From: Pseudopyrenochaeta lycopersici
Taxonomy: Eukaryota; Ascomycota; Dothideomycetes; Pleosporales; Pseudopyrenochaetaceae
Length of the DNA: 64,000 nt
Assembly: GCA_003313425.1 (NCBI GenBank)
Contig: NHZP01000009.1
Location: forward strand, 62,001-126,000
Direction: 5' to 3'
The position numbers and the translations under genes are program-made. How positions within the stretch are numbered: the stretch's first letter is position 1; every line of letters starts with the position of its first letter. The notes below the pieces were generated by a model. That model had not been told where the DNA came from. It saw only the letters and a list, made by a program, of their open reading frames with translations, and searched no databases. Of the stretch, positions 5,799 to 44,475 are shown in pieces.

Positions 5799-5815
5799 CT
5801 TTAAACACCCTCAAG

Positions 5816-11430: not shown

Positions 11431-11971
11431 TATTGCTAATTAGGGCCTCCTAGTACTTAAAGGGGAAGCCCTTAAACGCACCCTAGGTGCTGGGTGACAA
11501 ACTAAAACTAAGGGCATTAGAAGCGTTCTTAGGTAACAAGGCCTCTGCCGCTTCTTGCTCCTTAATATCCCGCTCTTCTACGGCTATTGCTTCTTCTACA
11601 CGCTAGTTAATTAAATCTATCTATTATTATAACTACTCTTTATAAGCTTAAGTAACGCGCAGCTCTTCTAGAGCCTTTTTATGCGCCTTTATTATAACCT
11701 CTTACGTATTTCTAGATTCTTTTATTTGCTCCTAAAGCTTTGTCTTTTAATTAACTAGTTGTTTAAACTTAGATTTTATAACTCGCACGTTATAACGTTG
11801 TCCTTAATAAAGGTACTCGCTATATTTCCCTAAGCAAACATTAACCTTGCACACCTAGTTATACTTTATATATGTTGTACACTTCTAAACTATAGCTTCC
11901 CTAAAAGAGTTAATAAAATTATAGAAGCGTTAATAATAAATAGTACTAGATACCTGTAGATATTTAGGCAT
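11430..11971 (-). pseudogene. Opposite-strand accessory ORF of E1, degraded
   Basis: Minus-strand reading frame between the end of pol and the 3' LTR, homologous to the better preserved copy at 35990-36537. Translation from the ATG at 11971 keeps the same order: a short N-terminus, a Cys cluster, then a Lys/Glu/Gln-rich coiled-coil region. It is interrupted by TAG/TAA stops. It overlaps the distal part of the element in antisense orientation. Function is unknown. Confidence 0.6.
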
Positions 11972-12056
11972 AGCGAGACATAGTAAAGTAAAAAGTAAGA
12001 AACGCCTGCGTTATATAATAAGCACTAAGGACAGCGCTAGGATAGGAGGAGGATAG

Positions 12057-17718: not shown

Positions 17719-18026
17719 AGTAATTACTATTACTAAAAAGTAGTAACCCTGGATAGAAACATAAGTGCCTAACTTTACTAGAGCATACTTCTTATACGTA
17801 TTAAGTTAGTATTATAAGACAGCGTAATATAGACAGGCTTGTATAGCCACACAACTCCTATGTCCCCTTGTCTTCTGCTTTGCCTAGGTCGCGCATCTTT
17901 AAAGGGCCTTAATACGTTTACCTGGCCTGAATAGTAATAACGTTAAGGGCGTAATAAGACTGGGCAGCCTATAGAGATACTAAGAGACTATTAGCTATAA
18001 TAATTACTACTACCTAAACTAGACTA
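17719..18026. other. Degraded sequence after E1; no gene seen
   Basis: RIP-altered sequence, probably the continuation of the retroelement broken at 5410. I could not align it to RNase H with confidence. A less mutated patch at 17850-17935 (GCCTAGGTCGCGCATC) has no recognisable coding content. Confidence 0.4.
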
Positions 18027-18192
18027 ATATATACTCCTAATGAATCTGGAAACAAGCGGAACTTGATCAATTAAGACGAGTATAGCAAAGATCTTGATCC
18101 CGTTTGTGAGGATACATTGTGCTATCTCATCCAGTAAATATAGTCTGGTCCCAGCGTCTTGTAATGCTTTCCTGATTGCATCTTCCGACATT
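18027..18192 (-). pseudogene. N-terminal fragment of a fungal kinase-like protein
   Basis: An open 55-codon minus-strand frame from ATG at 18192 to TAG at 18027-18029, too short for most ORF lists. It begins MSEDAIRKALQDAG and contains a hydrophobic TNGIKIFAILVLI segment. In my recollection that pattern is typical of the N-terminus of multicopy fungal protein-kinase-domain proteins. The frame stops just where the degraded retroelement sequence begins, so the rest of the gene has been cut off. The assignment rests on pattern memory only. Confidence 0.4.
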
Positions 18193-19249
18193 GCTTAGCA
18201 AAGCAAGAGCTGAGGGATGTACCATCGATAATACGCGTTCTTGCGGCGAAGATCTTTGAGGCGAAACTTCAGGCCGTCCAGATTTTGATCCATGATTCGT
18301 TCTATGCCAGGTTAGCGCATAGTCAAAAAGAGTATCTTACTAAGTTTATAGAATGTAGTGCACTCTTTAACTCACCCGCCGGGAGTTATCTCAGGGGAGC
18401 ATTTTCGGCTGAACAGCTAGCCAGTCTGGCCAGCCTGTTCCAGAGGTTGATCAATAAGATAAACCGCGAACAAACCAAGGAGCAACTACAACATCAATTG
18501 CCACAGTGCTTGCGGAGGGCATGTGCAGGGCAAGTTAGAATTAGGGAAGGTCCAGAGCCTAAGGTTAGACCTGTCGGGGCAGGGCACGGACTAGGCAGAT
18601 TTAGGCGAAGCCAAAGCTTGGCGCCGTCGCCACGCCAGAGCTCTTTCTTTCAACTAAAACTAAGACGTAAGGCCTCAACCAGTCAAGCCAGGAATGAGTA
18701 GACCGGTCAAATCAGTAAAGAGGGTAAGGCTAACATCAGTCAGGCGCAGACGACGCAAAGTTTAGGAAGAACCGAAGCTTAGCGCGATCGCCACGTCAGA
18801 GCCCAAAAAGTCGACCGAAACCCGGGCGGGCAGCCGTCATAGTAAGTCTTCTGTCGCACTGCACGTGCTAAAACGATGAAAGATGAGATAAATAAGCAGC
18901 AGCGTTGTATTGATGATGTTAGTGTCTAAGATGCGCAAGTATCTATCCAGAAGTGTTTCAGGTCGTCTCGAGCAGCTTACTCTGCGCATAAGCAGAGTTT
19001 TTTGTATCTAGATTTTGTCTTCCTAGGGCCTATTATCAAGTCTTTAAAGTTAACTTCGTCATACGTATAAAATAGGTAGCGAGCGGGGTAATAGAATCCG
19101 CTCCCGCCTATGTTAGTCCTGCAATTATTTCAAATTTAGGTCAGCGAACTGCTTTCTCTGTACTAAAAATCTAGGTTTAGTGGTAGCATAATTAGTAGTA
19201 TTTACAGCGAGCGGTTAAAGCGCTAAATACCTTGAACTTGCCACTGCTA
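18193..19249. other. Intergenic sequence with a diverged direct repeat
   Basis: Moderately GC-rich, little RIP. The frame at 18285-18701 plus (138 codons) has low-complexity Arg/Gln content and no recognised domain; I do not call it a gene. A diverged duplicate is visible: AAGCTTGGCGCCGTCGCCAC near 18614 and AAGCTTAGCGCGATCGCCAC near 18776, each followed by G(C/T)CAGAGC, a spacing of about 160 bp. Near 19080-19110 there is a short imperfect palindrome, GAGCGG...CCGCTC. No RNA gene was recognised. Confidence 0.35.
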
Positions 19250-19287
19250 GCAGAGAGGGCGGTTGACCCGCTCCGGCCACACTCTTG
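19250..19287 (+). repeat. Left terminal inverted repeat
   Basis: 38 bp beginning GCAGAGAGGGCGG, containing GACCCGCTC and ending CACACTCTTG. It is preceded by TA and matches the reverse complement of 23989-24025 with a few transitions and one 1-nt gap. Confidence 0.65.
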
Positions 19288-19598
19288 TGAGTGCCACCTT
19301 GCATTTGAAATGGAGAGATGGCAGTGAAGTTGAATGTTTGTACGGAGTTAGTTGGTGTCGCATAATGATAGTGTTGTGGCGAGTAAGCACAGCCGCATTT
19401 ACAAGCCACAGTTTCCCCACCTTTTGCACTAGAGCTGAAAGTAGGTTAGCGCATAAGGTTGCTGAGTCAACAGCGTTCAGACCTTTTATCCTCCAGCCGC
19501 TCTTCACCATCAACGTCCACTTTATGATACCGGTCCTTCCTACGGCGTGACATACGGCTATGTCAATATCTTGAATAGCTGTAAAGGAACATCAGCAT

Positions 19599-21124
19599 AT
19601 CACGCCGCCCTCGAGTTTCATCGACGCGCCTTGGACGCCTCCGCCATCTGACGAGAAAGCCTTTAAGCAAGCCCCCCGAGTTATCGCGCTTTTTAAGGAT
19701 ATTAAGGCTGGCAGACATATCAGCGATTAACTGTAGACAGAGTTTTAACTTACTAGAGGAGAGTACGATAAGATAAGGCGCTAGCTAAGATAAAACGAGT
19801 CTCTATTTAACTTCGTTAAAGACAAGATATAGTTCGTGTGCTAAAGAATTAGTAGAGGCGGTAGCTAATAATAAGGATAATACAGATATAACTATTGCGG
19901 AGAAAGCCACCGACTTTTCGTTCGGATGCTAACTAGCGTACATAAGCTCTTTATTAATAGTGTTAAAGACGCGATTTGAAGCTAGCTAAAAACGACTCGC
20001 AGTGGAGGTAATAAGGCAGCGTTCTTCGCGCAGAAAGTACAGCCGGCCTAATCTACTAAAATATACTGTGCCGATGCACTTAGTAACGTAGTTACTAAGG
20101 GCATCTTAGCTAGGGTTAGGTAGGCTTAGCTAGGAAATCTAGGTATAAAGGTAGATAGATAGGACCTCCTTAGGAGGTATTAAATCTACTAAGTATTACC
20201 TACGCTGTACTGTTAAGTCCTGCTTCAACAGAGTCTTAATTATTCAATTCACCGTTGCCTATCCACCCTTGTCTACCTCGTTACCCGTCCCCGCACCTCA
20301 CCATCTCAACCAACACGAGATGCTCAGTTGCTTCCACTGCGCGCAAGGCTACCATCAAAAGGGAGAAGTTGGCTGAGGCCTCTGTTCCTGCACAATACTT
20401 CCTAGGCGACAATGCTCCACCTAGTACTAGGTCAAAATATGAGCCGGATGCGTCTTTTTAGTATAAAGATGTACAATATCCTAGGGTTATAATTGAAGTA
20501 GCATATTCGCAGAAGAAGAAGAGGTTAGCTTAGCTAGCTAAGGACTATCTTCTGGATTCGAACGCTAGCGTGTAAGTTGTTGTTAGCCTAGATATTAAAT
20601 ACAGTAGGAAGGGCTCGCGGAAGGCAACTTATTAGTGTGGCGGACTCATGTAGTTATTGCTCCTAAAGGGAATAAGTTAAGAGTGGTTTAAGAAGTTGAG
20701 GATAAGGTAAATTCTCTTCTATAATAATACTATATCTTTTTTACCTAACATTCTTCCTAGGTATTCCGCGATAATTAAGGAAATCTAACTAATCTTCTAG
20801 GCTTGCGGCTTTAGCTGAACGATTTTGCTTATAAAGAACTTACACAGAATAAGCTTAGCAAGGATAACTAAGAAGTAGTTGTTTCTACGCACTAACTCTG
20901 CAAATACCTTAATGCGGCGGAGACTATAGTAGGACGGCTAGATTTACTTAGCAAGTATGCAATTACTTAGACTTAAGAAGCAGAAACGATTAGAGATACC
21001 CCCCTACTAAATCACTTCTAGTGATAAGGCAAGGTATGTTAAGCAGGAGGAGAGAGCTGCGAAGCGTATAGAGCAGGATGATTTCAACTATGCAGATGTG
21101 CTAATCAAGAGCTCGCCAGAATGA
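19599..21124 (+). pseudogene. Broken gene of an uncharacterised multicopy fungal family
   Basis: Plus-strand frame recognisable from ITPPSSFIDAPW (19599) to KSSPE-stop (21122-21124), with at least 15 TAG/TAA stops. The order of blocks is a PPSDEKAFKQAPRVIALFKD N-terminus, RMLTSVHKLFI (near 19926-19960), KYEPDASF (near 20436-20460), VIIEVAYSQKKKRLA (near 20490-20535), LLDSNASV and VVSLDIKYSRKGSRKATY. A basic C-terminus has KRLE, DKARYVKQEERAAKR. The VIIEVAYSQ and DxxV blocks recall restriction-endonuclease-like folds, but I know no proven function. The original start codon is not visible. A 328-bp insertion sits at 20067-20394; without it and one TSD copy the frame reads STKIY-FLGDNAPP with no shift. 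A short chance ORF at 20255-20461 spans the junction. Confidence 0.65.
20067..20394 (+). mobile_element. 328-bp TG...CA insertion, copy 1
   Basis: Begins TGTGCCGATGCAC, ends TTCCTGCACA, and is flanked by a 4-bp duplication ATAC (20063-20066 and 20395-20398). It interrupts a coding frame that closes up exactly when it is removed, so both ends are well defined. Next to the left end is a palindrome, TAGTAAC-GTA-GTTACTA (20080-20096). It shares both termini with 37120-37579. TG...CA ends with a short duplication suggest a solo LTR or TRIM-type LTR fragment; no ORF is present. Confidence 0.75.
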
Positions 21125-21805
21125 AAGCAAATACGTTAGTTGCAGCTAGTGACTATTTCTGATATGTTCGCGTTTTTATACTCTAAATTACACGGTTACG
21201 TCTTATATAGAAGCCGCAACGTCAGCTAACGCTTCTGGCGCAAGTGCAAGAGGCGTTGAGATTGTCTGAAAGATATGATATTTGAGGTTGTAGTAGTTGC
21301 TGCTACCTAGCTATCCGTAGTGCCTAGATTTAGCTCCCGCAGTGGGGTCTAGACCAGATCGCTTTCGGTTTCAGAGCTCTAACCTATTATAGGAAAGTCT
21401 AGCTCGAAGACCTATAGCACGTGCGATATCGCTGGTAAGCTTTTAGTGGTAACCACGCATACTCCAACCCCATTCTTCAAAGGGTTCAACGCTTCTCACA
21501 CAACTTGCGCGAGAGGCGTTATTTTCTAGTATTAACGAAGAAAGAGTTTAGGAATAGGTGTTATTGCTACCAGATAGCACTAGTGTAGTGGGCGCTAAGA
21601 GATTTTAAGCGCAATCTCTGCTAAGTTGCCCTTTTTTCCTATAATACGGAGCGCATCGAATTTCCGAAAGCTAAACAGAGGGCGCAGTTAGGAATGTAAC
21701 TCACGAAATTTATAGAAGCAGGCTTGCTACAGTAATATCTCCACGGTCTATGTGTCCCAGCACTTCGCATATTCTTCGTCGCTTCTAAACAACGACCGTC
21801 CTAAA
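21125..21805. other. Intergenic, no gene seen
   Basis: Mixed composition with several stops in all frames and no recognised protein or RNA. It may include the former promoter of the deaminase pseudogene. Confidence 0.5.
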
Positions 21806-22273
21806 ATAAGCGTATCAGAGACCTAGTCTAGTCCTTTAAAACCAAGAATCCAGGCCCTTATTAACGCCGCAACTACTATAATCAACTCTATCCCTGTCTC
21901 TAATACCTACAGCGTTGCCTCCGCAGCCCTATCCTCAGACGGTCGCATCTTTACAGAGGTAAACGTCTTCTATTTCACAGGTAGTCCCTGTGCCGAATTT
22001 GTCGCGCTCAGCAACGCCACTGCTAACAGTGCAGCGGACAAATTGACTTATATAGTTGCTGTAGGAAACGAGAATAGGGGTATGATTCCGCCTTATAGTA
22101 AATATAGGCAGATGTTGTTGGATCTGTGTCTAGGGATTCAAGTTATTATAATAGACGCAGATCAGGATAAAACTAAGGAAGGAATAGAAGGATTAAAGGC
22201 TGTGCTAAATTGCGAGCTGTTACCAGAGGCCTATAAGATTGCTAATTATCTGCGGGAGGCTATAGGAAGGTAG
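21806..22273 (+). pseudogene. Blasticidin-S-deaminase-like cytidine deaminase, inactivated
   Basis: The translation closely follows the fungal blasticidin-S deaminase (BSD) pattern: [50 protein letters not shown], then RQMLLDL and a longer C-terminus ending EAIGR-stop. The family hydrolyses an aminopyrimidine to the uracil form using a zinc held by three Cys, with the Glu of CAE as proton shuttle. Here PCAEF keeps one Cys and the Glu, but the expected PCGRCRQ is PYSKYRQ, so the two other zinc ligands are Tyr. All four changes are explicable by G-to-A. The probable start is ATA (21806-21808), a mutated ATG, and an in-frame TAG lies at 21824-21826. The open stretch at 22043-22273 is only its C-terminal half. 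The C-terminus is about 20 residues longer than I expect for BSD. Confidence 0.8.
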
Positions 22274-23381
22274 TAGTTTAGTGTAGAGGCAATTTTAGAA
22301 GGGTTATAAAATTTCAGGATAATATAGAAACTAATTTAGTTAAGATTTAGAATTTTAGCCTGTTATTTTAATGCTACAGAATCTTTTAAAAGGGTACTCG
22401 AACGAAACAATTATATCAGAATCTTTAACCTAAACGATACTAGTTATATTCAAGAGGACTCTTATAACGCGTCCAATTGACTGTTCTAGTTAGATATCAC
22501 GATCGCTTAGAAAATTTCACGAAGCTCTCAGCTATTCCTATACCATACGACTCTACTGCCACGAAGATCTAAATAGCTGTGCTAGGTGAGGTGAAAAGGA
22601 TGGGGTCGCAAAGACCCGATGTACGATGGATAATATAGGGAAGAAAAAGGTTAGATTCTCCGCTCAATTAAGTAGGCAGTGAGCGGATTATTCCTGTTGC
22701 CTTCGTCGTATCCTCTAGTTTCTATACAACACATCTGTTAGTCCTCCTAAAGCTACATCATCTACTAAGGCCTTTTTAGCTTTAGTATTATTGCGTTATC
22801 TTCTAAAGCATTATTCTACTCCCTATAGCCCTCGCTTAACAGGACGTTGTTTTCTTTGCGATAAGCTTCTTTAGTTAAGGCTTATTATTCCTTGCTGCCC
22901 TTCTGCTGTAGCAAACAACGGCTCATGTTAGTATCCGTAGATTGAAGCGGGCGACGTCGCTTTAGTTGTAGTGCCCGTGGGAATGAGCTACGAGCGCGTT
23001 TTTGGGACAGACAAAGAGGTTAGGGCTAGGGTGGCTGGTTAGCGAGCTATTCGCGAATAACGGCGGAGCTAAACGTTAGGGGAGTGTGCGGGCACTAGAT
23101 GCTGCTAGAGTCGCAGCCAGGCGAGGCGCTGGGCATGCAGAGCGAGAGTAGAGAGTGGAGGGTTGCCTGAGGACTAGATTGTTCGTTATTCGAGAATATT
23201 AGTGTGTCGTTGTCTACTGATTATCACTAGTTGTAGTACATCTGTCATAGCAACGACGCGCTTAGAGGCACGACGCAAAACATAGCTATAGAATGGGCAG
23301 CAATGATCCATTATAATCAATAGTCACGAGTTCAGAAAAGATTCGAGCGTTGAGTGGGGAGGCTAAGAGGATGAAGAGGAA
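22274..23381. other. Intergenic with possible minus-strand coding remnant
   Basis: No intact gene. On the minus strand from an ATG at 22927 to about 22750, reading through two adjacent stops, a Lys/Glu/Asn-rich frame (ALTKEAYRKENNVLLSEGY) looks like decayed coding sequence, family unknown. At 22660-22688 there is an inverted repeat CCGCTCA...TGAGCGG with a 13-nt loop. The remainder shows nothing I recognise. Confidence 0.35.
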
Positions 23382-23558
23382 GTGGAAGATGGAGATCTCA
23401 TCGCAGTGTTGGTGCCAAGCCGGGACTTCCGCGGCAGAAGTGCCTTACAAGGCTTGGCCCGCCATAATCGATATTCGACCTCAACCTCCATCTCAACTTT
23501 GAAAGAATGGCTAGTCAACAACACAACCTCACAAATACCTGCTGCAGTGGCAAGCTGT

Positions 23559-23620
<62 letters not shown>

Positions 23621-23819
23621 CTATTATGGCCATGCACCCTATGGGTATGGGCCGTTACGATGCGCCAGCTATGTACATTCTGTTATCAAGCACCTACTCC
23701 AGTTCAGAAGCCAACCATGAGACCTGCTGATCGAATATCTAACACTGTGCTCAACATAGGAAATAAAGAAAAAGTGATACGCTACAGTATGCTGTATATA
23801 GTTGAAAGTTGATAGTGAG
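23382..23819 (+). other. Unmutated sequence around a GT microsatellite; possible gene fragment
   Basis: Base composition is normal and RIP signs are absent. Overlapping frames at 23382-23720 and 23507-23812 run through the GT repeat and are probably artefacts of it. After the repeat, a frame from 23627 reads MAMHPMGMGRYDAPAMY..., with a Met/Gly/Tyr composition like a regulatory-protein segment, and ends at a TGA after 35 residues. I do not recognise it. It may be a truncated exon. Confidence 0.3.
23562..23619. repeat. (GT)29 microsatellite
   Basis: 58 bp of uninterrupted GT. The opposite strand is (CA)n, an ideal RIP substrate, yet it is unmutated, so this block has not been through strong RIP since the repeat formed. 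Confidence 0.95.
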
Positions 23820-23988
23820 CCAGCTTGTTTTCTGGCCTCCCCCATCCGCAGGGCAATTCCGGCGTCGTGCGCCTCTTAATCGGCAGCGCGCTGGCGGAGG
23901 TTCATAGGTGGCGGCTCTCTGCTAACTTAGTTCTAGTTAGTTAAAGCGTGGGCATAGGAATTCGTAGCCATTGTCTCCGCCTCTGCCG

Positions 23989-24025
23989 CAAGAGTGTGGT
24001 TAGAGCGGGTCGGCCCTCTCCCTGC
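23989..24025 (-). repeat. Right terminal inverted repeat
   Basis: 37 bp, CAAGAGTGTGGTT...CTCTCCCTGC, the reverse complement of the 19250 end with a few differences. It is followed by TA. Confidence 0.65.
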
Positions 24026-24027
24026 TA

Positions 24028-24315
24028 GGTGGCAAACCCAAAGCTATCTTCGCCGTTATCCGATCTCATTCCAGAACACACTTACTCATTGTCAAAGCAT
24101 AGCTTATAGTTCATTATGCGTGTTGCTGCCAAGAACTCTGACATGTGACAGATCCGCCTGCTTGCAGCTGTTTGGGGCTGAACCGACGGCAGTACGCATT
24201 ATGCGGACAACTATGTTGTCGCTGCTACTGCCTCTCAATCTTTCAAACATAGAGGCACCCCTCTGTCACCTTCCGACTCCCCTATACTAGAAGCATACCA
24301 CTGTTTGCTCATACT
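24028..24315 (+). promoter_or_regulatory. Upstream region of the NLR gene
   Basis: The 288 bp between the right inverted repeat and the NLR start. It contains pyrimidine-rich tracts (24256-24290) and a TATACTAG-like sequence about 30 bp before the ATG, plausible for a fungal promoter, but no defined transcription-factor site was recognised. Short frames on both strands here have no support as genes. Confidence 0.35.
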
Positions 24316-27300
24316 ATGGCGCCTTGGACAGAACGGCTCAAAGCAAAGCTCGGGAGAAAGAAACCGCCAACATCCCCGCTTGGTGAAGCCTCGTCTACCT
24401 CCATTACCCCACACGCACCAGCCACCCCTGATCCTGCCGCGCCTCCACCCAGCTTGCCAGAGCAACTGTGGAACCAAGCATACGACCAGGCGAAGACGGG
24501 CGATTCGAGTACTGTCGATACATACGAGAAGATTCTTTCTGCCCGACTGAGCCAAAAAGATGCAGACCCTGCGGACTCCTCACACTCTGCAGACCTCGCA
24601 TCGCAGCAGAACGCGATCGAACAGGACCCAGGCAAACGATGGAAGCAGATGTGCCAGCTCGTCCAAGATGGCCTGCATAGGACAGAGAAGGACGCCAACG
24701 TGAAGCACGGCATGGAAGACGGCATCCAAGCCGCCATGGCTGTGAAGGAGGTCGTGGGCAGGGCGGTGCAGGCGTCGCCAGAAGCAGCTCTCGCATGGGT
24801 CGGCGTGTGCTTTGCTCTCGAGGTTGGTCCTATTGTCGTTAAGATAAGCGATTGACGCTGATGTTTTGTGTCAAGATCCTGATGAACCCACTTACCCAGG
24901 CGAGCTCCAACCGGCAAGGCATTGCCTACGTCGTGTCAAGGATGGACTGGTACTGGAACCTGTCAAGCCTGCTGCTAGACAAGAACATGACCGAAGCGCA
25001 CTCCCAATGCCTGCGAGGCGAACTCGAGAAGATCATCATCCAGCTCTACGCGAAGCTGCTGCTGTACCAGATGAAGAGCGTGTGCTACTATCACCGCGGA
25101 CGGCTTTCGGTGTTCACGCGGGATCTAGTCAAGCTGGACAACTGGGACGGCGAGCTGAGCGACATACAGGCGGCAGAAGCGGCTGTACAGAGCGACTCAG
25201 CGCAGTACAACACGCTCTTGATTAGGACTCGCCTTGGCTCTATTGCTGAGACAGCCAAGTCGCAGAATGCCAAGCTTGACAGCATCAGCTCAGCGATTCG
25301 CGAACAGACTAAGCAGCGAGAGAGGATGCACGAGACCAGTGCAGACAACAAGTGCCTGGCGGATCTGTGCAGCACTGATCCTCGCCACGACAAAACACGT
25401 ATCGAAGAGACTAAGGGCGGCCTACTCAAGGACTCGTACCGCTGGATCCTCAAACACCCAGACTTCCAATGTTGGCGCAATGACCTTCAGAGCCAGCTGT
25501 TGTGGGTCAAGGCCGATCCTGGCAAGGGCAAGACGATGCTGCTTTGTGGAATCATCGACGAGCTGCAGAAGTCAATGGCCCAGGCAGGTCTTCTGTCCTA
25601 CTTCTTCTGCCAAGCCACTGACTCGCGGATCAACAACGCCACGGCCGTGCTGCGAGGTCTGCTGTACTTGCTTGTCGACCAGCAGCCATCACTTATTTTA
25701 CATATACGGAAGAAGCACGACCACGCAGGCAAAGCGCTCTTCGAGGATGCAAATGCCTGGACTGCCTTGTCCGAGATCTTCACAAACGTCCTGCAAGACC
25801 CGAGCTTAAATAGCACATCCTTGGTTATCGATGCCCTCGACGAATGTGTAACAGACTTGCCGAAACTGCTAGACTTTATCATCCAGAAGTCGTCTGTATC
25901 TTCTCAAGTCAAGTGGCTCGTCTCTAGCCGCAACTTGCCTGACATCGAGGAACGGCTAGAGAGGGCGGGCCATAATGTGAGGATGTGCCTCGAACTGAAT
26001 GCTGAGTCCGTGTCTACAGCGGTTAGCATATTTATCAGGAACAGAGTGCGTCAGCTAGCGGAAAGAAAGAATTACGACGACAAAATGCGAGACGCTGTGT
26101 TAGGCCATCTATTTTCAAATGCGAACGGCACCTTCCTCTGGGTGGCTTTGGTTTGTCAAAACCTCGAGAAGATCCCACGATGGAATACTCTTGCGAAGCT
26201 AAACGCATTTCCGCCTGGACTTAACTCTCTCTACGAGCGGATGATGCAGCAGATATGCAACTCGGACGATGCTGAGCTCTGCAAGCGGGTACTGGCCTTA
26301 ATTGCGATCGTATACCGACCCATCACACTTAAAGAGCTAACATCTCTTGCCGAGATGCTCGAGGATATAGCCGACGATCTAGAGTCGTTACAAGATATCA
26401 TTAGCCTTTGCGGCTCGTTTCTTACCATTAGACAAGGCACTATCTATTTCGTGCATCAGTCTGCAAAGGACTTCGTTTTCGCACAAGCATTGGATAAGAT
26501 CTTTCCGTCCGGGAGGGAAGAGGTCCACTACGCAGTCTTCTCCAGATCCCTCCAGGTCATATCCAGGACGCTACGGCGAGACATGTACAACCTAGGTGCG
26601 TTTGGATATCCTGCTGAGCGGATTAAGCAACCAGACCCAGACCCTTTAGCAGCATCGCGCTACTCATGTGCCTACTGGGTCGACCACCTCTGTGACTGGA
26701 ACCCCAACTCTCATACAAAACGCAGGGTTGATCTGCAGGATAGAGGTGCTGTCCACAGCTTTTTACAAAACAAATATCTTTACTGGCTTGAGGCACTCAG
26801 CCTCTGCAAGAGCATGCTGAGGGGGGTATTTTCAATGGCGAAACTCGAGGTATTAATCCAGGTAATTCTTAGATAAGCAATACCGTCAATAAATGATGCA
26901 CGTTAACGTAACCTAGGGAAGGGAAGATGCATCCGCATTAATCGAGCTAGTTCGAGATGCGCGCCGATTCCTTATGTATCACAAGTGGGCGATAGAGAAG
27001 AGCCCTCTTCAAGCATATGCGTCCGCACTCGTGTTTAGTCCAACCCGCAGTCTGATACGGGGCCTTTTCAAGGAGGAAGAGCCGAAGTGGATCAGGATGA
27101 AGCCAGCTATCAGAGATAAATGGAGTACCTGCCTGCAGACGCTCGAAGGCCATAGCGGTTGGGTCTGGTCGGTCGCCTTTTCCCACGACTCGGCACGGCT
27201 CGCGTCGGCGTCAGGTGACAGGACGGTTAAGATCTGGGATGCAAGCAGTGGCGAGTGCCTACAGACGCTCAAGGGCCATAGCGATTCGATCAACTCGGTC

Positions 27301-29223
27301 GTCTTCTCCCACAACTCAGCGCGGCTCGCGTCAGCGTCGGAAGACAAGACAGTCAAGATCTGGGATACAAGCAGTGGCGAGTGCCTGCAGACGCTCAAGG
27401 GCCATGGCGGTTCGGTCTTCTCAGCCGCCTTCTCCCACGACTCGGCACGGCTCGCGTCAGCGTCGGATGACAAGACAGTCAAGATCTGGGATACAAGCAG
27501 TGGCGAGTGCCTGCAGACGCTCGAGGGCCATAGTGATTCGATCAACTCGGTCGCCTTCTCCCACGACTCAGCGCGGCTCGCGTCAGCGTCAGGCGACAGC
27601 ACGGTTAAGATCTGGGATGCAAGCAGTGGAGAGTGCCTGCAGACGCTCAAGGGCCATAGCGGTTGGGTCAGGTCGGTCGTCTTCTCCCACGATTCGGCAC
27701 GGCTCGCGTCAGCGTCGGAAGACAAGACAGTCAGGATCTGGGATGCAAGTAGTGGCGAGTGCCTACAGACGCTTGAGGGCCATAGCGATTCGGTTAACTC
27801 GGTCGCCTTCTCCCACGATTCGGCACGGCTCGCGTCGGCGTCCGACGACAAGACAGTCAAGATTTGGGATGCAAGCAGTGGGAAGTACCTGCAGACGCTC
27901 GAGGACCATGGTGGTTGGGTCTGTTCGGTCGCCTTCTCCCACGATTCGGCACGGCTCGCGTCGGCGTCAGGCGACAGGACGATCAAGATCTGGGATGCAA
28001 GTAGTGGAGAGTGCCTGCAGACGCTCGAGGGGCATAGCGGTTCGGTCTTCTCAGTCGAATTGTCTCACGACTCGGCCCGGCTCGCGTCAGCGTCATCCGA
28101 CAATACGGTCAAGATCTGGGATGCAAGTAGTGGCGAGTGCCTGCAAATGCTCGAGGGCCATAGCGGTTCTGTCTTCTCAGTCGCCTTCTCCCACGACTCA
28201 GTACGGCTCGCGTCAGCGTCAGGCGACAGCACGGTTAAGATCTGGGATGCAAGCAGTGGAGAGTGCCTGCAGACGCTCAAGGGCCATAGCGGTTGGGTCA
28301 GGTCGGTCGTCTTCTCCCACGATTCGGCACGGCTCGCGTCAGCGTCGGAAGACAAGACAGTCAAGATCTGGGATGCAAGTAGTGGCGAGTGCCTGCAGAC
28401 GCTCAAGGGCCATAGCGGTTGGGTCAGGTCGGTCGTCTTCTCCCACGATTCGGCACGGCTCGCGTCAGCGTCGGAAGACAAGACAGTCAAGATCTGGGAT
28501 GCAAGTAGTGGCGAGTGCCTGCAGACGCTCGAGGGCCATAGCGGTTCAGTCTGCTCAGCCGCCTTCTCCCATGATTCGGCACGGCTCGCGTCAGCGTCGG
28601 AAGACAAGACAGTCAAGATCTGGGATACAAGTAGTGGCGAGTGCCTGCAGACGCTCGAGGGCCATAGCGGTTCAGTCTGCTCAGTCGCCTTCTCCCATGA
28701 TTCGGCACGGCTCGCGTCAGCGTCGGAAGACAAGACAGTCAAGATCTGGGATGCAAGTAGTGGTAAATGCCTGCAAATGCTCGAGGGGCATAGCGGTTCA
28801 GTCTACTCAGTCGCCTTCTCCCATGACTCGACACGGCTCGCGTCAGCGTCGGAAGACAAGATAGTCAGGATCTGGGATGCAAGTAGTGGCAAGTGCCTGC
28901 AGACGTTTAGTGTTGGCAAGCCACTCTTTAACATATCATTCGATGCCACCGGCTCATATCTTTACACTGAGGTTGGCACTATCGATATTAGAGTACTATC
29001 AGTTTCAAATATGACACCCAGTGTTACGGATCCTCAAAATCCTCGATACCAAGGCGTAGGTCTGGGTCCAGGTGGGGCATGGATAACATATAATTCAGAG
29101 AACCTTGTGTGGCTACCCTCAGAGTATCGGCCGTTATGTTCGGCCGTGTCAGGGAAGACGATTGGCATCGGTGTTGGATCTGGAAAGGTACGGATATGCA
29201 ACGTTGAGCTCGATAAATCTTAA
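24316..29223 (+). CDS. NLR: NACHT NTPase with 14 WD40 repeats (HET-E/HNWD-like), intact
   Basis: Inferred exons 24316-24822, 24876-26861 and 26917-29223, with GT-AG introns of 53 and 55 nt, both in phase 0, give about 1599 residues without a stop. Residues 1-45 are basic then Pro/Ser-rich. Residues about 48-330 match the NACHT_N domain of fungal NWD proteins (LWNQAYDQAKTGD, YEKILSARL, IAYVVSRMDWYWNLSSLLL). The NACHT has Walker A ADPGKGKT (382-389), Walker B LVIDALDEC (485-493) and an SSRN sensor (519-522). WD40 repeats of exactly 42 residues span 906-1493, then a degenerate blade-like tail. The family triggers heterokaryon incompatibility or innate-type defence when the WD propeller senses a ligand. 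Start: first ATG of an open frame that fits the family N-terminus. Without splicing, stops at 24853-24855 and 26874-26876 would break it, so the introns matter. No death-effector domain such as HET is seen at the N-terminus. Confidence 0.88.
24823..24875 (+). other. NLR intron 1
   Basis: 53 nt, GTTGGT...TCAAG, with branch-like ACGCTGAT about 20 nt before the end. Removing it joins FALE to ILMNPLTQ, the continuity expected for the domain. The sequence shows this only indirectly; RNA reads would settle it. Confidence 0.8.
26862..26916 (+). other. NLR intron 2
   Basis: 55 nt, GTAATT...CCTAG, with branch-like GTTAAC. Splicing joins VLIQ to GREDASALIELVRDARRF and brings the NACHT exon into frame with the WD40 exon. 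Confidence 0.82.
27139..28902 (+). repeat. 14 tandem 126-bp WD40 units within the NLR
   Basis: Exactly 14 x 126 bp with no indels between units. The consensus is TLxGHSxxVxSVxFSHDSARLASASxDxTVKIWDxSSGECLQ with variation at few positions, mainly residues 3, 6-10, 12-13, 28 and 30 of each unit. Units 10 and 11 are identical at protein level, and the block of units 4-5 is nearly identical to units 9-10. This homogeneity points to recent unit exchange or duplication. Confidence 0.97.
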
Positions 29224-29975
29224 GAAATTGCAGCGTTTATATAGAGGGTAACTAATTACTTGCTTTATATTTTTTTATTAATCTCTATTTCATAGAAAGC
29301 TTCCATGGCGCGTCTAAATCAGTAGCAAGGTGGCTAGAACTACTAAGCTTAAAGATTTGCCGCGCTTAGGTCTTGTCAGAAGCAGACGAATGCCTTGATC
29401 ACGCTAGCAGGGAGGGCGGCCGACCCGCACCGGCCATAGGTTTGCGCTGGAGGCGTTGAATTTTTAAGTCTGTGTTAGAAGAGGAAGAGGGTGCGTAGAG
29501 TCGCCACTAACATAAGCATCTATTAAGTCGGTTACTGCCAAGACGTGTTCCACAGGGTACTAGATGTAGGACCCTACTTAAGCCTGAAACTAGTGTTAAC
29601 TAAGTTAATGTTAGAGCTTAATCCACTGCGGGAACTATAAGCGGGACATTTATAATTAACAGGCACGATCCTGCCTTAAGCGCAGCACTAGCTACAAATA
29701 CACTATCGGTCTTAGTTGTTACCTATTATTACCAAGTAACCTAGAACTAACAGCAGGTTGCTTACGAAAGCGCTAAGGCATTAAATATTACGAAGATTTA
29801 TACACTATGCCTCGTTATAGTAAGAAAAGTTATTTCATATCTAGAGAGCATAAGGGTGTAGGTTAGTTTATATGTAACGAAGTATCGTAAATCTAAATCT
29901 TAGTGTTGCAGTATAATTGCGCTAGGCCTTTCTAAGGGCTAGCGCGCACTGCGGCGGACCTACTTAAAACCTGCG
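29224..29975. other. Downstream of the NLR: a lone inverted-repeat end, then degraded sequence
   Basis: The first 180 bp are the NLR 3' flank. At 29407-29440 there is a third copy of the inverted-repeat end. From about 29460 the sequence is RIP-altered and featureless up to the E2 insertion; it continues after E2 at 37016. No gene was found. Confidence 0.55.
29407..29440 (+). repeat. Orphan left-type inverted-repeat end
   Basis: GCAGGGAGGGCGGCCGACCC...CCATAGG, preceded by TA (29405-29406). It matches the ends at 19250 and 24025 over about 30 bp and then diverges. No partner right end was found further right. It faces away from the NLR gene. Confidence 0.55.
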
Positions 29976-30363
29976 TGTTACGATCCTGCCGGGACCCTGC
30001 CCCAGTGGCCCCAACTGGACCTCACAGGTATTGGACCAACAACCGAGGTCACGTGACGTGCTCAGTTGATCAGTTTGATCAGTGGCACTGAGCACACTGA
30101 GCACACTGAGCAACATGCATAACTTCTATGTATATAGATCACCACAATAAACCCTTATGGCTCATTGTGTTCAACTCAATATTATACTCTACAGTATAGT
30201 GATAGCAATACCGATTGTTCTTAACCCCTAGTACTCTTTACAGAAGCGCCCTCTTACTGTCTTAGTCCTAGACCCCTTCCATCTAGTCCCTCACTCTATC
30301 CTAGAGAACTAACCTTACAATCTCATTAGTTATCCTTACTAATAGCCTTAAAGATTCTTCACA
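29976..30363 (+). repeat. 5' LTR of E2
   Basis: 388 bp, TGTTACGATCCTGCC...TTCTTCACA. It contains the palindromic GGTCACGTGACGTG landmark and a TGAGCACAC tandem at 30088-30112. It is the least RIP-changed LTR of the family in this window. Confidence 0.95.
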
Positions 30364-30380
30364 CTTTAAACACCCTTAAG

Positions 30381-32600
30381 ATGAGTAACACTAAGATAGA
30401 GACTACTAACCATTATGCCACAAGGCCAGGCAACGCTGTCGCCAAACCAGACCTCTTCTATAGAGATCGGTTTAAGCTCAAGGACTAGCTACTCCAGTTC
30501 AACCTATTCTTCAAGTTCAACGCGACTACTATAGACGACGACGACCAAGCGGTACTTATAACGAGCTACATAAGGGGCGAAGCTGCTAAATGGGTGAAGC
30601 CTCACCTAGTCAAGTACCTGGCTAAAGGAACCAAACTAGAAGAGCTAATCAAGATATTCAAAGACACGGGAGAATTTAAGACACGCATGCGACAAGCATT
30701 TAGGTTACTAAATAAGACTACTATTGCAGAACGTAAAATCTAGAACATGCGATAAACCCGGTCTGCAGCCGATTATACTAACGAGTTCCTAGGGTACGCC
30801 AGACAAACTAACTAGAATAATGACACCCTAAAAACTATGTATAAACAAGGCCTAAAAGCAGATGTTCAAACTGAACTAATGCGCTCTAGCATGGGCATTA
30901 CTACGCTAGACGACCTAATTAACGAAACTATCTAACTAGATATAGAGCTCTACGAGCTCCGTATGCGACTTAGAGGACGACTACTAGGATAAATAAAAGA
31001 AGATAAGAAACCCTAGAAAGATTATCGCAATAAGCTAAATAATAGTCGCCTATAATATTAGTATTAACTATAAGGAGTGCCTAGATAATACCTGTTAGGG
31101 GGCCCTAAGGCAATGCATCTAGATAATCTTAATAAGGAGAAGTTAGGTAAGGGCAGGAAGAAAAAAGAAATAACCTACTTTAACTGTAATAAGAAAGGCT
31201 ATATAGCTAAGGACTGTAGGAGTAAGAATAAAGTAACCCCCTAGATCAACATAATAGTGGTAAAGGAAGAAAACAGCGACGACGAAACATAGGAAGTTAT
31301 CGCGACCCGAGAGGAAAGGGCTCAAGACACGGAAACGACGCAGCTACCTCTCCTAGAACCTACTAAGAAAGGGATTCTAGGAACCTAGTATAGCGATAAG
31401 GAAGAAGAGAGCAGCAGCTCCCTGTCTCTAGTCTACGAGGACGCTAAGGAGGACTTCAACGATACTATAGTACTCTTAACTAAGGATTAGAAAAAGGAAA
31501 ACTTCTAGAAGCAATATTAACTAGGAACCCTAAGGCTATCAACGCCTACAGAGGTAGAAAAAGACATTGCAGAACTTAACCGCCAGTTACACGCATAACA
31601 CATATACGAAGTATAATATATTAATGCGTTAACCCTAGAAGAATAGGAAGCAGCTATAAAACAAGGAATAAGTACGATTATTCTAGCTAAACAAGCGATG
31701 CAAGACATGTTACAGGAATATTACTGTTACCCTAAACATTATACGAAGGTAATATAAGAATAGGCGGAAAGAGCTAAAGAAGCATAGCAACCCGCAAGCG
31801 TTAGGAACGCACTACGGAAACTTTAATAAGCTAGGTAAACATAGGCACCAGAACCCCTAGTAGTTAAGACCCCTAAATACACACTACGACGCTAAATAAT
31901 GCTACTACTAACACGGGAAGACGCCTTCTATATACTAAACACTAAGAACCTAGTATAATAAGGGTATCTTTAAGTTAACTCCTACAGTAAAATCGTGCTC
32001 ACAGACGGTAAGAAGTAAGACATTTATACGTAGCTTAAATAACAAATATATTAGGAGGATAACAAAGAGAATGTTAACCCTCTCTAGCATCTTATAGAAG
32101 AAGAAGCCTAAGAAATATACGAGCACGCTGAGGCAGCTTAGACCCTATATACTATGCGTAAAGGACTATAGAAACTAGTACTAGACTACTTAATAGATCT
32201 ACGCAATAAGCAATACAGTATTGTCTATTAGTCCTTTTATACTACAGACCTATGCGCGATCTATTATTTAAGTAAAACAGAACAGGGATACTTCCCTTAC
32301 TCGTTTTACTAATATAAATACTAATAGTATAATTATCCTAAAGTTAAATACGACAACCACTTATAGGATAAGAGGACTGTCCTCTACTTCCTAGGAAATA
32401 ACGACCCTGCGGCTACTATAGCGATGCAGCTGGTCTTTAATAGAGAATGTAATCAGCGATAATAGCAAACGTGCCTTAACTTAGATTACCTTAAGTATAA
32501 AGATATTAAGACACTAAACAGGTATTAGGAAGAGCCTTTTTTAGGGTCACGCCTACTAATAGGCAAGAACTGCGAACTCTATGCGTAACAGGCACACAAG
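30381..32600 (+). pseudogene. E2 gag and long linker
   Basis: Starts at ATG 30381 (MSNTKIETTNHYATRPGNAV). A capsid-type Retrotrans_gag region follows (DRFKLKD, VLITSYIRGEAAKWVKPHL, MRQAFRLLN, MRSSMGITTLDDLI) to about 31000. The zinc knuckle at about 31168-31222 reads YFNCNKKGYIAKDC, having lost the first Cys and the His to Tyr. A linker of roughly 400 codons then leads to the protease. Stops are almost all TAG, at positions where CAG or TGG would fit. Confidence 0.85.
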
Positions 32601-35600
32601 GACTCCTTAAGCTAAATATTAAACTTAACAGAAGCTGGATAAAGGTACTAGTGGATTCTGGAGCATAACAGAGCTACATTTCTACGCAAGCGATAGAACA
32701 AGCTAGCCTTGTCCTATCGTTGAAATTAGTACTATATCTATTAACAGTCGCTAATAGATAACTAATGCTATTAGAGTCTGTAATTACACACGAAGTATAG
32801 AGCGTGCAACTTATCATCTAGAACTATAGGGAAACGATTAACCTAGACGTCTTCAGACTATTACAGTATGATGTGATACTAGGACTCCTATAGTTAAGAG
32901 AACATAGTCTAGACATAGATTAGAAAAGGAAAAAGTTCTCGTTTAAATGCTGTAGAACAGACGCAACTACGAGTAAGCCTACGCTGCGGCCGAGTGCCCG
33001 GGTAGATAAGAAGATGACGATTAGAATCCTTACTTTAAACAAGGACGGCCTTAAGATATGAGGGTCCGACTCAGCAGGTACTAATAGGAGGCTCTTAGAC
33101 TAACAAGCTAGAGTTAAGGAGCAAAACGTAACTCTAGTAATCCCTGATGAGTATAAAGAATATAAGTTACTTTTTTAGGAAGAGACAACTATAAAAGCAT
33201 TGCCTAAGCATTAACCCTAGGATTATAAGATTATCCTACAGGAAGGAAAGTAACTGACTTTTAGCTTAATTTACGGTTTATTAGAAAAAGAACTTAAGAC
33301 TCTGCGCGAATATATTAAGACGAACTTAAAAAAGGGATTTATTAGAGAATTACAGTTACTAGCAGGATACCCTATACTATTTATACTAAAAAAGAATAGG
33401 AAGCTAAGATTATGCGTTAACTACTAGAAACTTAATAATATTACAGTAAAGAATTAATACCCTTTACTAAATATAGCGGAATTATAGGATTAACTAGCCT
33501 TTATAAAAGTCTTTACAGCATTAGACTTATAAGGAGTGTATAACCTTATTCGCATAGAGGAAGGTAAGGAATAGAAGACTGCGTTTAGAACACGCTACAG
33601 CTACTACAAGTATATAGTAATGCCTTTTAGTCTTACTAACGCACTAGTAACATGCTAGGCACTTATTAATAATGTGTTAAGGGAATACCTAGACGTATTT
33701 ATTATTACATACTTTAATAATATCCTGGTGTACTCTAAGAATCTACAGGAACATATTAAGCACGTTAAAATAGTTCTTGCCTGCTTAGGAAGATTTAGTT
33801 TACTGCTTAAACTTAAGAAATGTAAGTTCTATAAGGAGGAAGTTAAGTTCCTAGGATATATAGTAGGTGCACACGGAGTAAAGATAAGTAAAGAAAAAAT
33901 AAGAGTAGTAAAAGAATAGCCTAAACCTAAAATAGTTAAAGACATATAGTTATTTATAAGATTTATTAACTTTAACTAATAGTTTATTAAGGATTTCTCT
34001 AGGAAATCTATCCTACTTACTAAACTTATAAGAAAAGATATAAAATAGGAATAGGGAAATAAATAAAGAAAAGCATTCTAGATACTTAAGGAAGCTTATA
34101 TTATACTACTAGTGCTGATTACATTCTAAATAGGAGAACCCTTATAGTTTAAAACAGATACCTCAGACCTTGCACTAGGTGCAACGGCGAAATAAGAACG
34201 TGATAGGAAATAGCACCTAATCGCGTACTACTTAAGAAAATTTATAGACGCTAAGAAACGCTACGACGTGCATAATAAAGAGCTTATAGCAGTCGTTAAT
34301 GCCCTTAATTACTAGCGAATCTACGCAGAGAGTTGCTTAGATCTTACGATATTTACAGATTATAAGAACTTAGTTTATTTTACTACTACTAAAACCTTAA
34401 ACTGTAGACAGGTTAGATAGGCTAAAATACTAGGATAATATAAGTTTAAGATCGTGTATACGCTAGGAAAGGATAATAGCAGAGCTAATGCTCTTAGCTG
34501 TAGAATAGACATCGCAGGAATAAAAGCAATAGTTAGCGATGCTATCCTTTAAGTTAACTAGGATAGAAGCCTAGGACCTAATAAGTTATTAAATAACACT
34601 ATAATAATTACGTCTGAAGTACCTAAAGAATTGTAAGAGGCGATTATCTGATAACACTATAATAACCTAGTATATAGTTACCTAGGAATTAAGAGAATAA
34701 TAGAACTTATACAGCGATACTACAGCTTTAAGAATATAAAGGCTAAGGTTAAATAGTTTATTAAAAAATGCGCGGACTATTATAAGAATAAACACAGTAC
34801 CTACGTACCCTACGGAGAAATGCAAGCTATAGAGCTACCTAACAAACCTTAGGCAGACATTTCTATAGACTTTGTAACAGGGTTACTACTATCTAAAGAT
34901 CCCGCGACAGGAATTAAGTATAACGCTATCCTTAATATAGTCTGTAGATTTACGAAAGCAGCAGAAATAATACTGTTTAGAAATAACTATAACACAGAAC
35001 AACTAGCGTTTATTATCTTAGACAGACTAATATAATATCATAGTATACCTAAGTCTATTATAAGTAACAGAGATAAGCTCTTTACATCTAACTTCTAGTC
35101 TACCCTAATGGCCGCGATAGGAACAAAGAGAAAATTGTTAACAGCCTATTACTTACAAACGGACGGATAGATAGAAAGAACGAACAGAATAATAAAGACC
35201 TACCTAAGAATTTACAGCAATTAATAATAAAATAATTAGGTCTTATTGTTACTAATAGCATAACTAGCCTATAATAATAAATTGTTAGAATTAACTAGAA
35301 AGACACTGTTCTTTGCTAACTACAGGAGACACCCTAATCTCTTTATAAAGTTATATCCTAGTAGAAAAACTAAAGCAGCTATAAAAACAGCTAAAGAAAT
35401 AAAAAAAGTATATAAATAACTCTGAGAAAATCTTAAGAAAGCATAACGTAACAGTATTTCCTACTAGAATAAGAAAAGAAAAATAGTACCTTAGCTAAAA
35501 AAGGGGGATAAAGCATACTTACTTACGAAGAACCTACGTAATAAGCGACTAAGTAAAAGACTTAACTACGTTAAAGTTAGACTATTTTTAGTTAAAGAAC

Positions 35601-35990
35601 AGAATAGACTAGTAAACTATACACTTAAGCTACTACTAGATATAAAGATCTACCTACGCTTCTATATCTCTAAGTTAGAACTAGCTAATCCTGCTACACT
35701 ATTACAGAAAATATTCTAGTATAAACTAGAAGAAGAAAACAAATTTAAAGTTAAGAAAATCTAGGGATACTAATAAAATAGAAGAATTAATAACCTAGAA
35801 CTAAGCTTTAGCTACCTAGTTAAATAGAAAGGATACCTAAGCGTAGAGAGTACGTGGGAACTACTAGAAAATCTAGGAAACTGTTAAGAAAAAATTAGAG
35901 AATACTAGGAAAGGGAGGAAAGGAAAAAGAAGAAGTAAATAAACCTTAAGAAACGTTAAGAGCTAGAGGAAACTAACAGACCCGCTACTA
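32601..35990 (+). pseudogene. E2 pol with chromodomain, inactivated
   Basis: The protease motif LVDSGA near 32648-32665 is intact. RT covers about 33250-33930, with active site YFNN at 33710-33721 where YxDD is expected, so both aspartates are Asn. RNase H follows (QTDTSDLALGA-like, about 34155), then the integrase core (DISIDFVTGLL near 34857, QTDG near 35157) and a chromodomain at about 35810-35880 (YLV-stop-KGYLSVESTWELLENL). The chromodomain would have directed insertion to marked chromatin. The open stretch 33674-33919 is only the RT core between stops. Confidence 0.87.
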
Positions 35991-36537
35991 GTAGCCCATC
36001 GCCAGCTAGGACCTCCTAGTACTTAAGGGGGAGGCCTTCAAACGCACCCTAAGTACTGGGTGATAAACTAAACCTAAGGGCATTAGAAGCGTTTTTAGGC
36101 AACAAGGCCTCCGCTGCTTCTTACTTCTTAATGTCTTGTTCCTCTACAGCTATTACTTCTTCCGCGCGCTAATTAATTAAATCTATTTATTATCGTAACT
36201 GCTCTTTGTAAGCTTAAGCAACGCGCAGCTCCTCTAGAGCTTTTTTATGCGCCTTTATTGTAACCTCTTACGTATTTCTAGATTCTTTTATCTGCTCCTA
36301 AAGCTTCGTCTTCTAATCTACTAATTGTTTAAATTTAGACTCTGTAACTCGCACGTTGTAACGTTACCTTTAACGCAGACACTTGCTACATTTCCTGGAA
36401 CGAACATAGACCTTACATACCTAATTATACTTCGCGCACGTTGTGCACTTTTAAACTATAGCTTCCCTAAAGAAGTTAATAAAATTATAGAAACGTTAGC
36501 GACGAATAGTGCTAGACACTTATAGATGTTTAGGCAT
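35990..36537 (-). pseudogene. Opposite-strand accessory ORF of E2 with Cys cluster and coiled coil
   Basis: Minus-strand frame starting at ATG 36537 (MPKHL). It contains a Cys cluster, KCTTCAKYN-x-VCKVYV followed by SRKCSKCLR, i.e. C-x2-C-x6-C-x8-C-x2-C. A Lys/Glu/Gln-rich segment with heptad character follows (about 100 residues: ESKFKQLV, AHKKALEELRVA, EEVIAVEEQDIKK). It lies antisense to the stretch between the chromodomain and the 3' LTR. Stops are TAG/TAA at former Gln, Arg or Trp codons. A zinc-binding, nucleic-acid-binding or regulatory role is only inference; I know of similar multicopy fungal hypothetical proteins but no function. Confidence 0.7.
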
Positions 36538-36622
36538 GGCGAGACATAATGCGGCAAGAAGTAGGAAACGCCTGCGTTATATAATAAGCACTAAGGACAG
36601 CGCTAGGACAGGAGGGGGATGG

Positions 36623-37010
36623 TGTTATAATCCTGCTGGGACCCTGCCCTAGTGGCCCTAACTGGACCTCACAGGTATTGGACCAACAACCGAGGTCACG
36701 TGACGTGCTCAGTTGATCAGTTTGATCAGTGGCACTAAGCACACGGAGCACACTGAGCAACATGCATAACTTCTATGTATATAGATCACCATAATGAACC
36801 CTTATGGCTTATTATGTTTAACTTAATATTATACTCTACAGTATAGTGATAGCAATACTAATTGTTCTTAACCCCTAGTACTCTTTACAGAAGCGCCCTC
36901 TTACTGTCTTAGTCCTAGACCCCTTCCATCTAGTCCCTCACTCTATCCCGGAGAACCAACCTTGCAATCTCATTGGTTATCCTCACCGATAGCCTTAAAG
37001 ATTCTTCACA
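36623..37010 (+). repeat. 3' LTR of E2
   Basis: 388 bp, TGTTATAATCCTGC...TTCTTCACA. It differs from the 5' LTR mainly by transitions such as ACGATCC to ATAATCC. It is followed by the target duplication CTGCG. Confidence 0.95.

Positions 37011-41710: not shown

Positions 41711-41836
<126 letters not shown>

Positions 41837-43946: not shown

Positions 43947-44475
<529 letters not shown>

Follow-up and report, generated by a model that had tools for sequence, protein, structure and literature searches.

The window analysed here is a stretch of 64,000 nucleotides from the fungus Pseudopyrenochaeta lycopersici, positions 62,001 to 126,000 of contig NHZP01000009.1 (C9) in the 62.7-Mb, 188-contig assembly GCA_003313425.1. 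At 24316-29223 it contains an intact gene for a NOD-like receptor (NLR) of the NACHT-WD40 type, and the DNA on both sides is altered by repeat-induced point mutation (RIP). It is a general question how fungi assemble extensive recognition repertoires that vary between strains when their genomes penalise gene duplication; in part of a published account, RIP is expected to conflict with the duplication of NLRs, which are held to have diversified by other means (PMC12258605). Here, we describe an analysis of the gene, of its second copy in the same genome, and of the sequences that bound both. We present evidence that the NLR is probably the cargo of a short inverted-repeat cassette, belonging to a family whose members mostly carry one recognition gene, and that it probably moved or was exchanged at exact CAA and TTG ends. 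Taken alone, the window holds an ordinary NLR; the family-wide packaging pattern is the new part.

Results

The receptor gene and its predicted product

Two introns of 53 and 55 nt, proposed in an initial annotation made from the letters alone, restore one frame of 1599 codons with no internal stop across three exons. The parts of the gene are as follows.

24316-24822, forward: NLR exon 1, from the frame and splice reading
24823-24875, forward: intron 1, 53 nt, GT-AG, joining NACHT_N profile positions 113/114
24460-25196, forward: NACHT_N domain, residues 49-276, spanning intron 1 (PF17100, E-value 5.5e-80)
24876-26861, forward: exon 2, with the end of NACHT_N, NPHP3_N/NACHT and a winged helix (Pfam)
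25512-25535, forward: P-loop ADPGKGKT, residues 382-389, from the homologue alignment
26862-26916, forward: intron 2, 55 nt, GT-AG
26917-29223, forward: exon 3, with a linker, the WD array and a divergent C-terminal tail
27130-28893, forward: 14 WD40 units of 126 nt each, with variable sites at unit positions 11, 13, 29 and 31
28894-29223, forward: divergent C-terminal tail, possibly cryptic blades, present also in the homologue consensus

The donor of intron 1 is weak (GTTGGT); exon 1 stops at position 113 of the NACHT_N profile and exon 2 resumes at 114, so that the intron makes an exact join. A protein of Zopfia rhizophila, the nearest over residues 1-930 among 120 homologues listed, aligns there residue for residue (1-930) at 81% identity, across both splices. 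The Pfam scan, of which the best 25 of 62 families were viewed, returned a complete NACHT_N domain and 14 WD40 stretches, and exon 2 matched NPHP3_N (E-value 4.8e-35), NACHT (E-value 5.6e-14) and a winged helix; all three domains named in the initial annotation were thus found by profile. The claim of a complete P-loop NACHT stands insofar as all 123 columns invariant in an alignment of 34 homologues are retained, but the first P-loop residue is Ala rather than Gly, as it is in 15 of the 117 homologues with a readable motif. The likeness drawn to HET-E and HNWD proteins is correct as to NLR identity and not as to the N-terminus, which is a HET domain in those proteins and NACHT_N here: in Pfam, at E-values up to 0.01, exon 1 matches NACHT_N alone and no HET domain.

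A protein search gave 1912 matches among 7993 scored, and the 120 listed are fungal where named, chiefly from Pezizomycotina. Sequence comparison relates the WD region to Apaf-1 and to repetitive WD proteins; for exon 2, nothing among the sequences of solved structures matched at E-values up to 0.1. A model of the closest homologue (mean predicted local distance difference test score, pLDDT, of 71.7) matches the folds of MalT, Apaf-1 and CED-4 with low template modelling (TM) scores. A NACHT_N fold was dropped, model confidence being low in that part, as was a blade count from the exon 3 model, whose tail lies mostly below a pLDDT of 50. By itself the gene adds a member to a known kind, and nothing in the protein distinguishes it from its NACHT_N relatives. 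By family resemblance, the product, presumably expressed, would be an intracellular sensor whose WD array binds a ligand through its variable surface; the NACHT ATPase would then oligomerise and the helical NACHT_N domain would trigger a cell-death or defence response. Part of the literature links NACHT_N to MLKL/HeLo-like bundles and describes its function as open (PMC9815663).

A second copy defines the boundaries of a cassette

Exon 2 has at least 67 matches in the assembly, the next best of which, on contig C25, is 99% identical. The C25 copy is an open gene of 1515 amino acids with 12 WD units, and the two copies show 12 differences in the 3142 bases upstream of the array. Their shared block extends from 23988 to 29444 and stops within 1 bp of a CAA on the left and a TTG on the right, beyond which the outer sequence differs. 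The following features are delimited by this comparison and by matches between the two ends; the inverted-repeat cassette was not noticed in the initial annotation.

23989-29444, forward: probably mobile cassette CAA...TTG, 5456 bp, from the end of C25 homology on both sides
23989-24031, forward: left terminal inverted repeat, an inverted match to the right end
29400-29444, reverse: right terminal inverted repeat, an inverted match to the left end
23560-23988, no strand assigned: outer module left of the cassette, (GT)n and a dispersed repeat, also found outside the right end of the C25 copy
19174-19288, reverse: terminus of a further inverted-repeat element belonging to this family

The inverted match between the ends is imperfect and scores 39; among 473 random inverted pairs the highest score is 22. 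The same exact boundaries are found in a second pair, the HET cassettes C1 and C54b, which are 99.9% identical over 2856 bp and share only 2 and 1 bases outside; their right-hand flanks are related to each other. Furthermore, C9 and C41 have common outer flanks and different cargo, the NLR cassette in the one and a 2936-bp cassette with a HET match in the other, and the bases just inside CAA and TTG differ between them.

A resident NLR of the ordinary sort, maintained by selection in a RIP-mutated region with few genes, with the C25 copy a chance segmental duplication and the ends unrelated dispersed repeats, would agree with the age of the gene, as judged from its close homologues in many Pezizomycotina, with the occurrence of identical segmental duplications in this assembly (see C34 and C88 below) and with the fact that most NLRs have no such ends. 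This explanation is unlikely, given that homology ends within 2 bp of inverted ends in two independent gene pairs, that other cargo occupies the same locus in C41, and that the association of ends with genes is absent in the hAT and long terminal repeat (LTR) controls described below. A variant of the cassette reading, whose odds do not exclude it, is ectopic gene conversion between shared inverted ends with no cassette-level transposase. Flanks that are alike around differing interiors in C9 and C41, outer modules that are mosaic, and the lack of a target duplication at CAA/TTG and of a transposase all agree with such recombinational exchange; conversion tracts, however, should end variably, and the boundaries lie at CAA and TTG although the bases just inside differ. 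We consider it a tentative possibility, likelier than a resident gene.

A genome-wide family of cassettes carries mostly recognition genes

The end core has 106 matches in the genome (52 forward, 54 reverse), compared with 0 and 1 for the reversed control; the best 100 of the 106 were viewed, and two positions were added by hand. For the 50 plus-strand cores used, a partner within 12 kb is facing in 24 cases, parallel in 5 and diverging in 6. Facing cores are 1.9-11 kb apart, mostly with a single gene between them. The cargo is NACHT or HET in 17 of the 22 cassettes read from these 24 pairs (C96 and C54:224322-235498 were left out), or in 15 of 20 when two near-identical pairs are counted once.

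NACHT/NPHP3_N cargo: C9, C25, C34, C54a, C11 (broken remnant), C12b, C25b, C51a
HET cargo: C1, C54b, C47, C43, C46 and C51b by Pfam; C13, C14 and C5 by position
Other cargo: ankyrin (C42), DUF7104 (C37), GDSL (C23), NUDIX (C12a), hAT (C68)

The C54a cargo is a HET-NACHT-WD40 gene, the HNWD architecture. DUF7104 repeat arrays occur in two cassettes (L034 and L039), with 10 and 21 matched stretches, one of them also with TPR and a HET match; they are possibly a further type of sensor repeat.

From the NLR and HET lists alone, 12 of the 24 pairs contain a match, against about 1.9% expected for each. A core lies within 3 kb of 9/64 NLR and 12/150 HET matches, compared with 0/51 for the hAT control and 1/39 for the LTR control; within 6 kb the respective counts are 9, 16, 1 and 2. 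These counts use 64 of 67 NLR rows (three adjacent fragments were merged), the best 150 of 520 HET candidates scored, 51 of 52 hAT rows and 39 of 44 LTR rows, and the P-values assume random placement. Zones within 9 kb of a core or of the outer terminus described below cover 4.0% of the genome and contain 22 of the 67 NLR rows. Ends of the kind found in miniature inverted-repeat transposable elements (MITEs) might also pile up independently near NLR and HET genes in compartments rich in transposable elements. DDE_1 and hAT elements are abundant in the genome, and some pairs of MITE size (136-694 bp) have the same outer terminus; such piling up is nonetheless improbable in view of the facing orientation with a gene in between, the fact that in 8 of 22 cassettes the 16 bases before the core are the same on the left and on the right, and the background level of the hAT and LTR controls.

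Outer termini and target sites

Several cassettes are nested in longer inverted repeats, the arms of C51b being 1164 bp long and 99.9% alike. The outer terminus, TA followed by ACGTCCCC, has 67 and 63 genome matches (best 100 of 130 viewed), and its controls have 0 and 0. Of 9 end pairs, 7 have TA at each junction; a clear left end is missing in C25c and C25d. The HET element of C43, a full-length relative, sits inside a smaller element of the family, with TA on both sides as a target-site duplication, and the unoccupied form of this site, CTGTC-TA-TTCTC, is found in C34 and C88; a shorter relative of the host element lies at C54:69.9-70.4 kb. One HET domain and TPR repeats were found in the cargo of two elements picked by their termini alone.

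The NLRs of C34 and C88 show no difference in the 3102 bases read, which extend into the flank, and C55 differs. We rejected this pair as proof of transposition because the flanks are identical too; it is either a recent segmental duplication or a duplicated haplotype in the assembly. Two candidates for the mover were also rejected: DDE_1, of which none of the 150 matches scored (742 candidates) lies in 35 element intervals, and the hAT element of C68 (L044:4429-7080), which constitutes a separate family of its own with 52 rows. At 100% identity, that hAT has six open copies and three others with a single stop; there are older, stop-laden copies too, and its recent spread took place without RIP. 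ToxhAT-like hAT elements make an 8-bp target duplication, and none of this type was seen at the cassette or outer junctions examined.

RIP drops near the edges of the cassette

The initial annotation was right to contrast the gene with its RIP-mutated neighbours. In 1-kb bins, the composite RIP index is negative in every bin of 23001-29000 and -0.09 at 18001-19000, and positive elsewhere in the window; around the C25 copy, 19 of 20 bins have a negative index. The NLR lies between two copies of one LTR-type element (5410-12000 and 29975-36921), and the end repeat of this element has about 40 genome rows, mostly 90-96% identical. Its repeats at 29975 and 36622 differ at 15 positions, of which 14 are transitions (9 CpA, 5 CpG); the internal pair 8549/33115 is less clean (15 CpT, 9 CpA). 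Compared with C41, the flank 20395-23987 has 230 transitions (143 CpA, 71 CpG), 220 of them A/T in the window. In this comparison each 300 bp has 15-34 window-side transitions as far as 23394 and 0-4 beyond it; on the right side there are 4 in the 146 bp just outside the cassette and 14 in the following 150. The cassette interior shows 10 window-side changes in 3142 bp relative to C25; C41 and C25 differ in age as comparators, and the clean step is therefore limited to the C41 comparison. The drop in load near the cassette implies either that insertion took place after the surroundings had mutated or that the cassette was never a RIP target. It appears, then, that the cassette either arrived after RIP or was present as a single copy at the time, and there is no sign of duplicate-targeted RIP from then on.

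Of the 15 transitions that separate the window from C25 outside the array, 14 have A or T in the window, six of these at CpA; this weighs against a fully clean RIP history. With paralogues as a guide to the six exon-2 differences, 26223 is clearly window-derived (7/7) and 26818 weakly so (2/2 readable), and at two others the window state is found also in one paralogue. The codon changes in this comparison comprise 3 silent and 5 that are not; the Leu of the window at residue 817 is shared by 0 of 18 homologues. The suggestion that RIP is now inactive fits the few differences upstream of the array (12 in 3142), the six open hAT copies at 100% identity and the identity of C34 with C88 where read. 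A DNA methylase search gave four exon-level matches, C11:521041-521996 among them; one match has three internal TAA triplets, which may hint that the RIP machinery has been lost or may instead mark an intron.

The WD array has changed since the copies diverged

Tandem Repeats Finder (TRF) detected 14.1 copies of a 126-nt period (score 2502), in agreement with the 14 Pfam stretches and with the 14 units counted initially. The units have a mean identity of 86.7% in nucleotides and 82.8% in amino acids; 13 are distinct, and units 10 and 11 are identical. Part of one source sets the criterion for highly alike repeats at >85% likeness over at least 100 amino acids (PMC4986451). In part of Paoletti et al. 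(2007; PMC1805685), codons 7, 9, 25 and 27 are reported to be under diversifying selection, with 8 and 26 constrained. If V12 and D30 of the window units are taken as 8 and 26, the corresponding positions are 11, 13, 29 and 31, which hold 39% of the unit entropy, a share matched by 3 of 111,930 four-site sets. The variability profile agrees with that of 27 other repetitive homologues (rho 0.66). At the remaining 38 positions the ratio of nonsynonymous to synonymous polymorphism (pN/pS) is 0.21, which indicates that the array is constrained. Among the homologues, with unit boundaries set by a simple scoring rule, unit number peaks at 12 (31/120) and is at least 14 in 10/120; in unit likeness the window ranks 26th of 119.

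The difference between 14 units in the window and 12 in the C25 copy can be traced to two places. Unit 4 of C25 is a chimera, half from window unit 4 and half from window unit 5, and unit 9 of C25 is the same as both unit 10 and unit 11 of the window; the window thus has one additional unit at the 4/5 junction and one exact duplicate. In the window array, units 4/5 and units 9/10 share 160 nt exactly, which points to unit gain there. From sequence comparison, the window array looks expanded relative to the C25 copy, which upholds in part the idea that it was newly amplified. We rejected a RIP signature among the units, since polymorphism is found at 8/16 CpA sites and 31/68 others (p 0.79) and a CpA excess is absent. 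The view that RIP struck the array and selection removed damaged copies draws on the constraint of the array and on the A/T bias of the window. Purging would leave silent RIP hits, yet the index is low across the gene and in the surroundings of the C25 copy, and the units have no CpA excess; it is very improbable, the least likely of the explanations considered here.

Other features of the window

Whether the NLR is the only long intact gene, as was claimed, is not certain, because the window has other open frames. At 41526-42951 on the reverse strand, frames of 311 and 174 amino acids remain open in DNA of 15-20% GC, where stops are expected to be frequent; the 311-residue frame has 12 relatives, and the locus looks by eye like a transposase. 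At 21827-22273 on the forward strand, a remnant related to blasticidin-S deaminase (E-value 4.9e-37 to a solved structure) lies in RIP-mutated DNA and, by eye, looks broken. Adjoining AT-rich tandem arrays occupy 43232-44228: a 19-nt repeat, a 24-nt repeat (20 copies, 99% alike) and (TAC)48.

Discussion

Mobility is well supported for the relatives of the cassette and probable for the cassette of the window. We propose that the segment between CAA at 23989 and TTG at 29444 would carry the receptor as most cassettes of the family carry one NACHT or HET gene each, and that some cassettes would lie inside longer terminal inverted repeats that duplicate a TA target. Movement or exchange would occur at the exact CAA and TTG ends, probably by means of a putative transposase acting in trans. 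The receptor would contain little RIP because it arrived in already mutated DNA, or because it was single-copy then, and after the last duplication its WD array would have kept changing by unit gain or transfer. For the wider proposal, a dedicated mobile-element family that has the self/non-self recognition repertoire of this fungus as its cargo, in interchangeable single-gene NLR and HET cassettes that move among loci and longer transposon shells while the arrays shuffle internally, we judge the evidence to be evenly balanced.

Several observations weigh against the reading proposed here. The two ends of the window cassette differ in the 16 bases before the core; neither a target duplication of this cassette nor a direct repeat beside CAA/TTG was found, and the TA/ACGT outer terminus, looked for with as many as 3 mismatches in 16, was absent from the window and from 20 kb of sequence around the C25 copy. 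No transposase was found: the hAT of C68 stands apart, and none of the 150 DDE_1 matches scored (742 candidates) lies in the 35 element intervals, other families not having been searched. In five of the 22 cassettes the frames tested showed no NACHT and no HET, a core is absent from the 3 kb around 55 of 64 NLRs, and the association with the outer terminus is weaker (within 3 kb, NLR 3/64, HET 4/150, controls 0). The RIP step on the left is displaced some 0.6 kb outward from the edge of the cassette. Finally, pN/pS at the four variable sites of the array is 0.91, not above 1, a value that does not amount to positive selection.

If a transposon family does carry single NLR and HET genes, the recognition repertoire would spread by movement rather than by tandem duplication, recognition genes would be swapped at one locus, and they could reach RIP-mutated regions without being mutated themselves. 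This account predicts empty sites and differing cargo at one locus between strains.

In the titles and abstract openings of the open-access literature searched, small inverted-repeat elements with single NLR or HET genes do not appear, and Starships and ToxhAT do. NACHT and HET genes are reported in a Starship in part of one account (PMC9594970). Starships have a DUF3435 captain gene and span tens to hundreds of kb. The cassettes described here differ from Starships in their length of 1.9-11 kb between facing cores, in their mostly single-gene cargo and in their inverted repeats. Pack-TIR and Pack-MULE elements of plants are non-autonomous terminal inverted repeat (TIR) elements with captured genes; here the cargo consists of long open genes of one functional class, not assorted fragments. 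ToxhAT and other gene-carrying TIR transposons of Dothideomycetes are, in the parts of the literature consulted, alike in having cargo bounded by terminal inverted repeats and different in that the present elements carry recognition genes, are smaller and have many different cargo genes in one genome; further, the target here is TA at the outer level, with none seen at the cassette level.

At the level of the protein, the order NACHT_N, NACHT and WD40 is that of the NACHT_N (Goodbye-like) NLRs of Pezizomycotina. Apaf-1 is among the best fold matches of the modelled homologue (E-value 8e-8, after MalT); identity is 12-13% and whole-chain TM-scores are 0.23-0.41, so that the likeness is at the domain level, and there is no CARD here. 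The closest comparison is with the HNWD/NWD NLRs of Podospora anserina (het-D, het-E and het-R), which control heterokaryon incompatibility in that fungus and which, like the window gene, combine NACHT with highly alike 42-amino-acid WD units, have variable residues at four unit positions, and show changes in unit number and chimeras between near-identical copies. According to part of one account, active Podospora alleles usually have 11 units, to which three cryptic ones are added to make two 7-blade propellers (PMC12222747); the window has 14 units and a divergent tail, a mismatch with this sum of 11 and 3. The window gene also differs from HNWD/NWD in its N-terminus, NACHT_N rather than HET, and in its gene-sized cassette with inverted ends.

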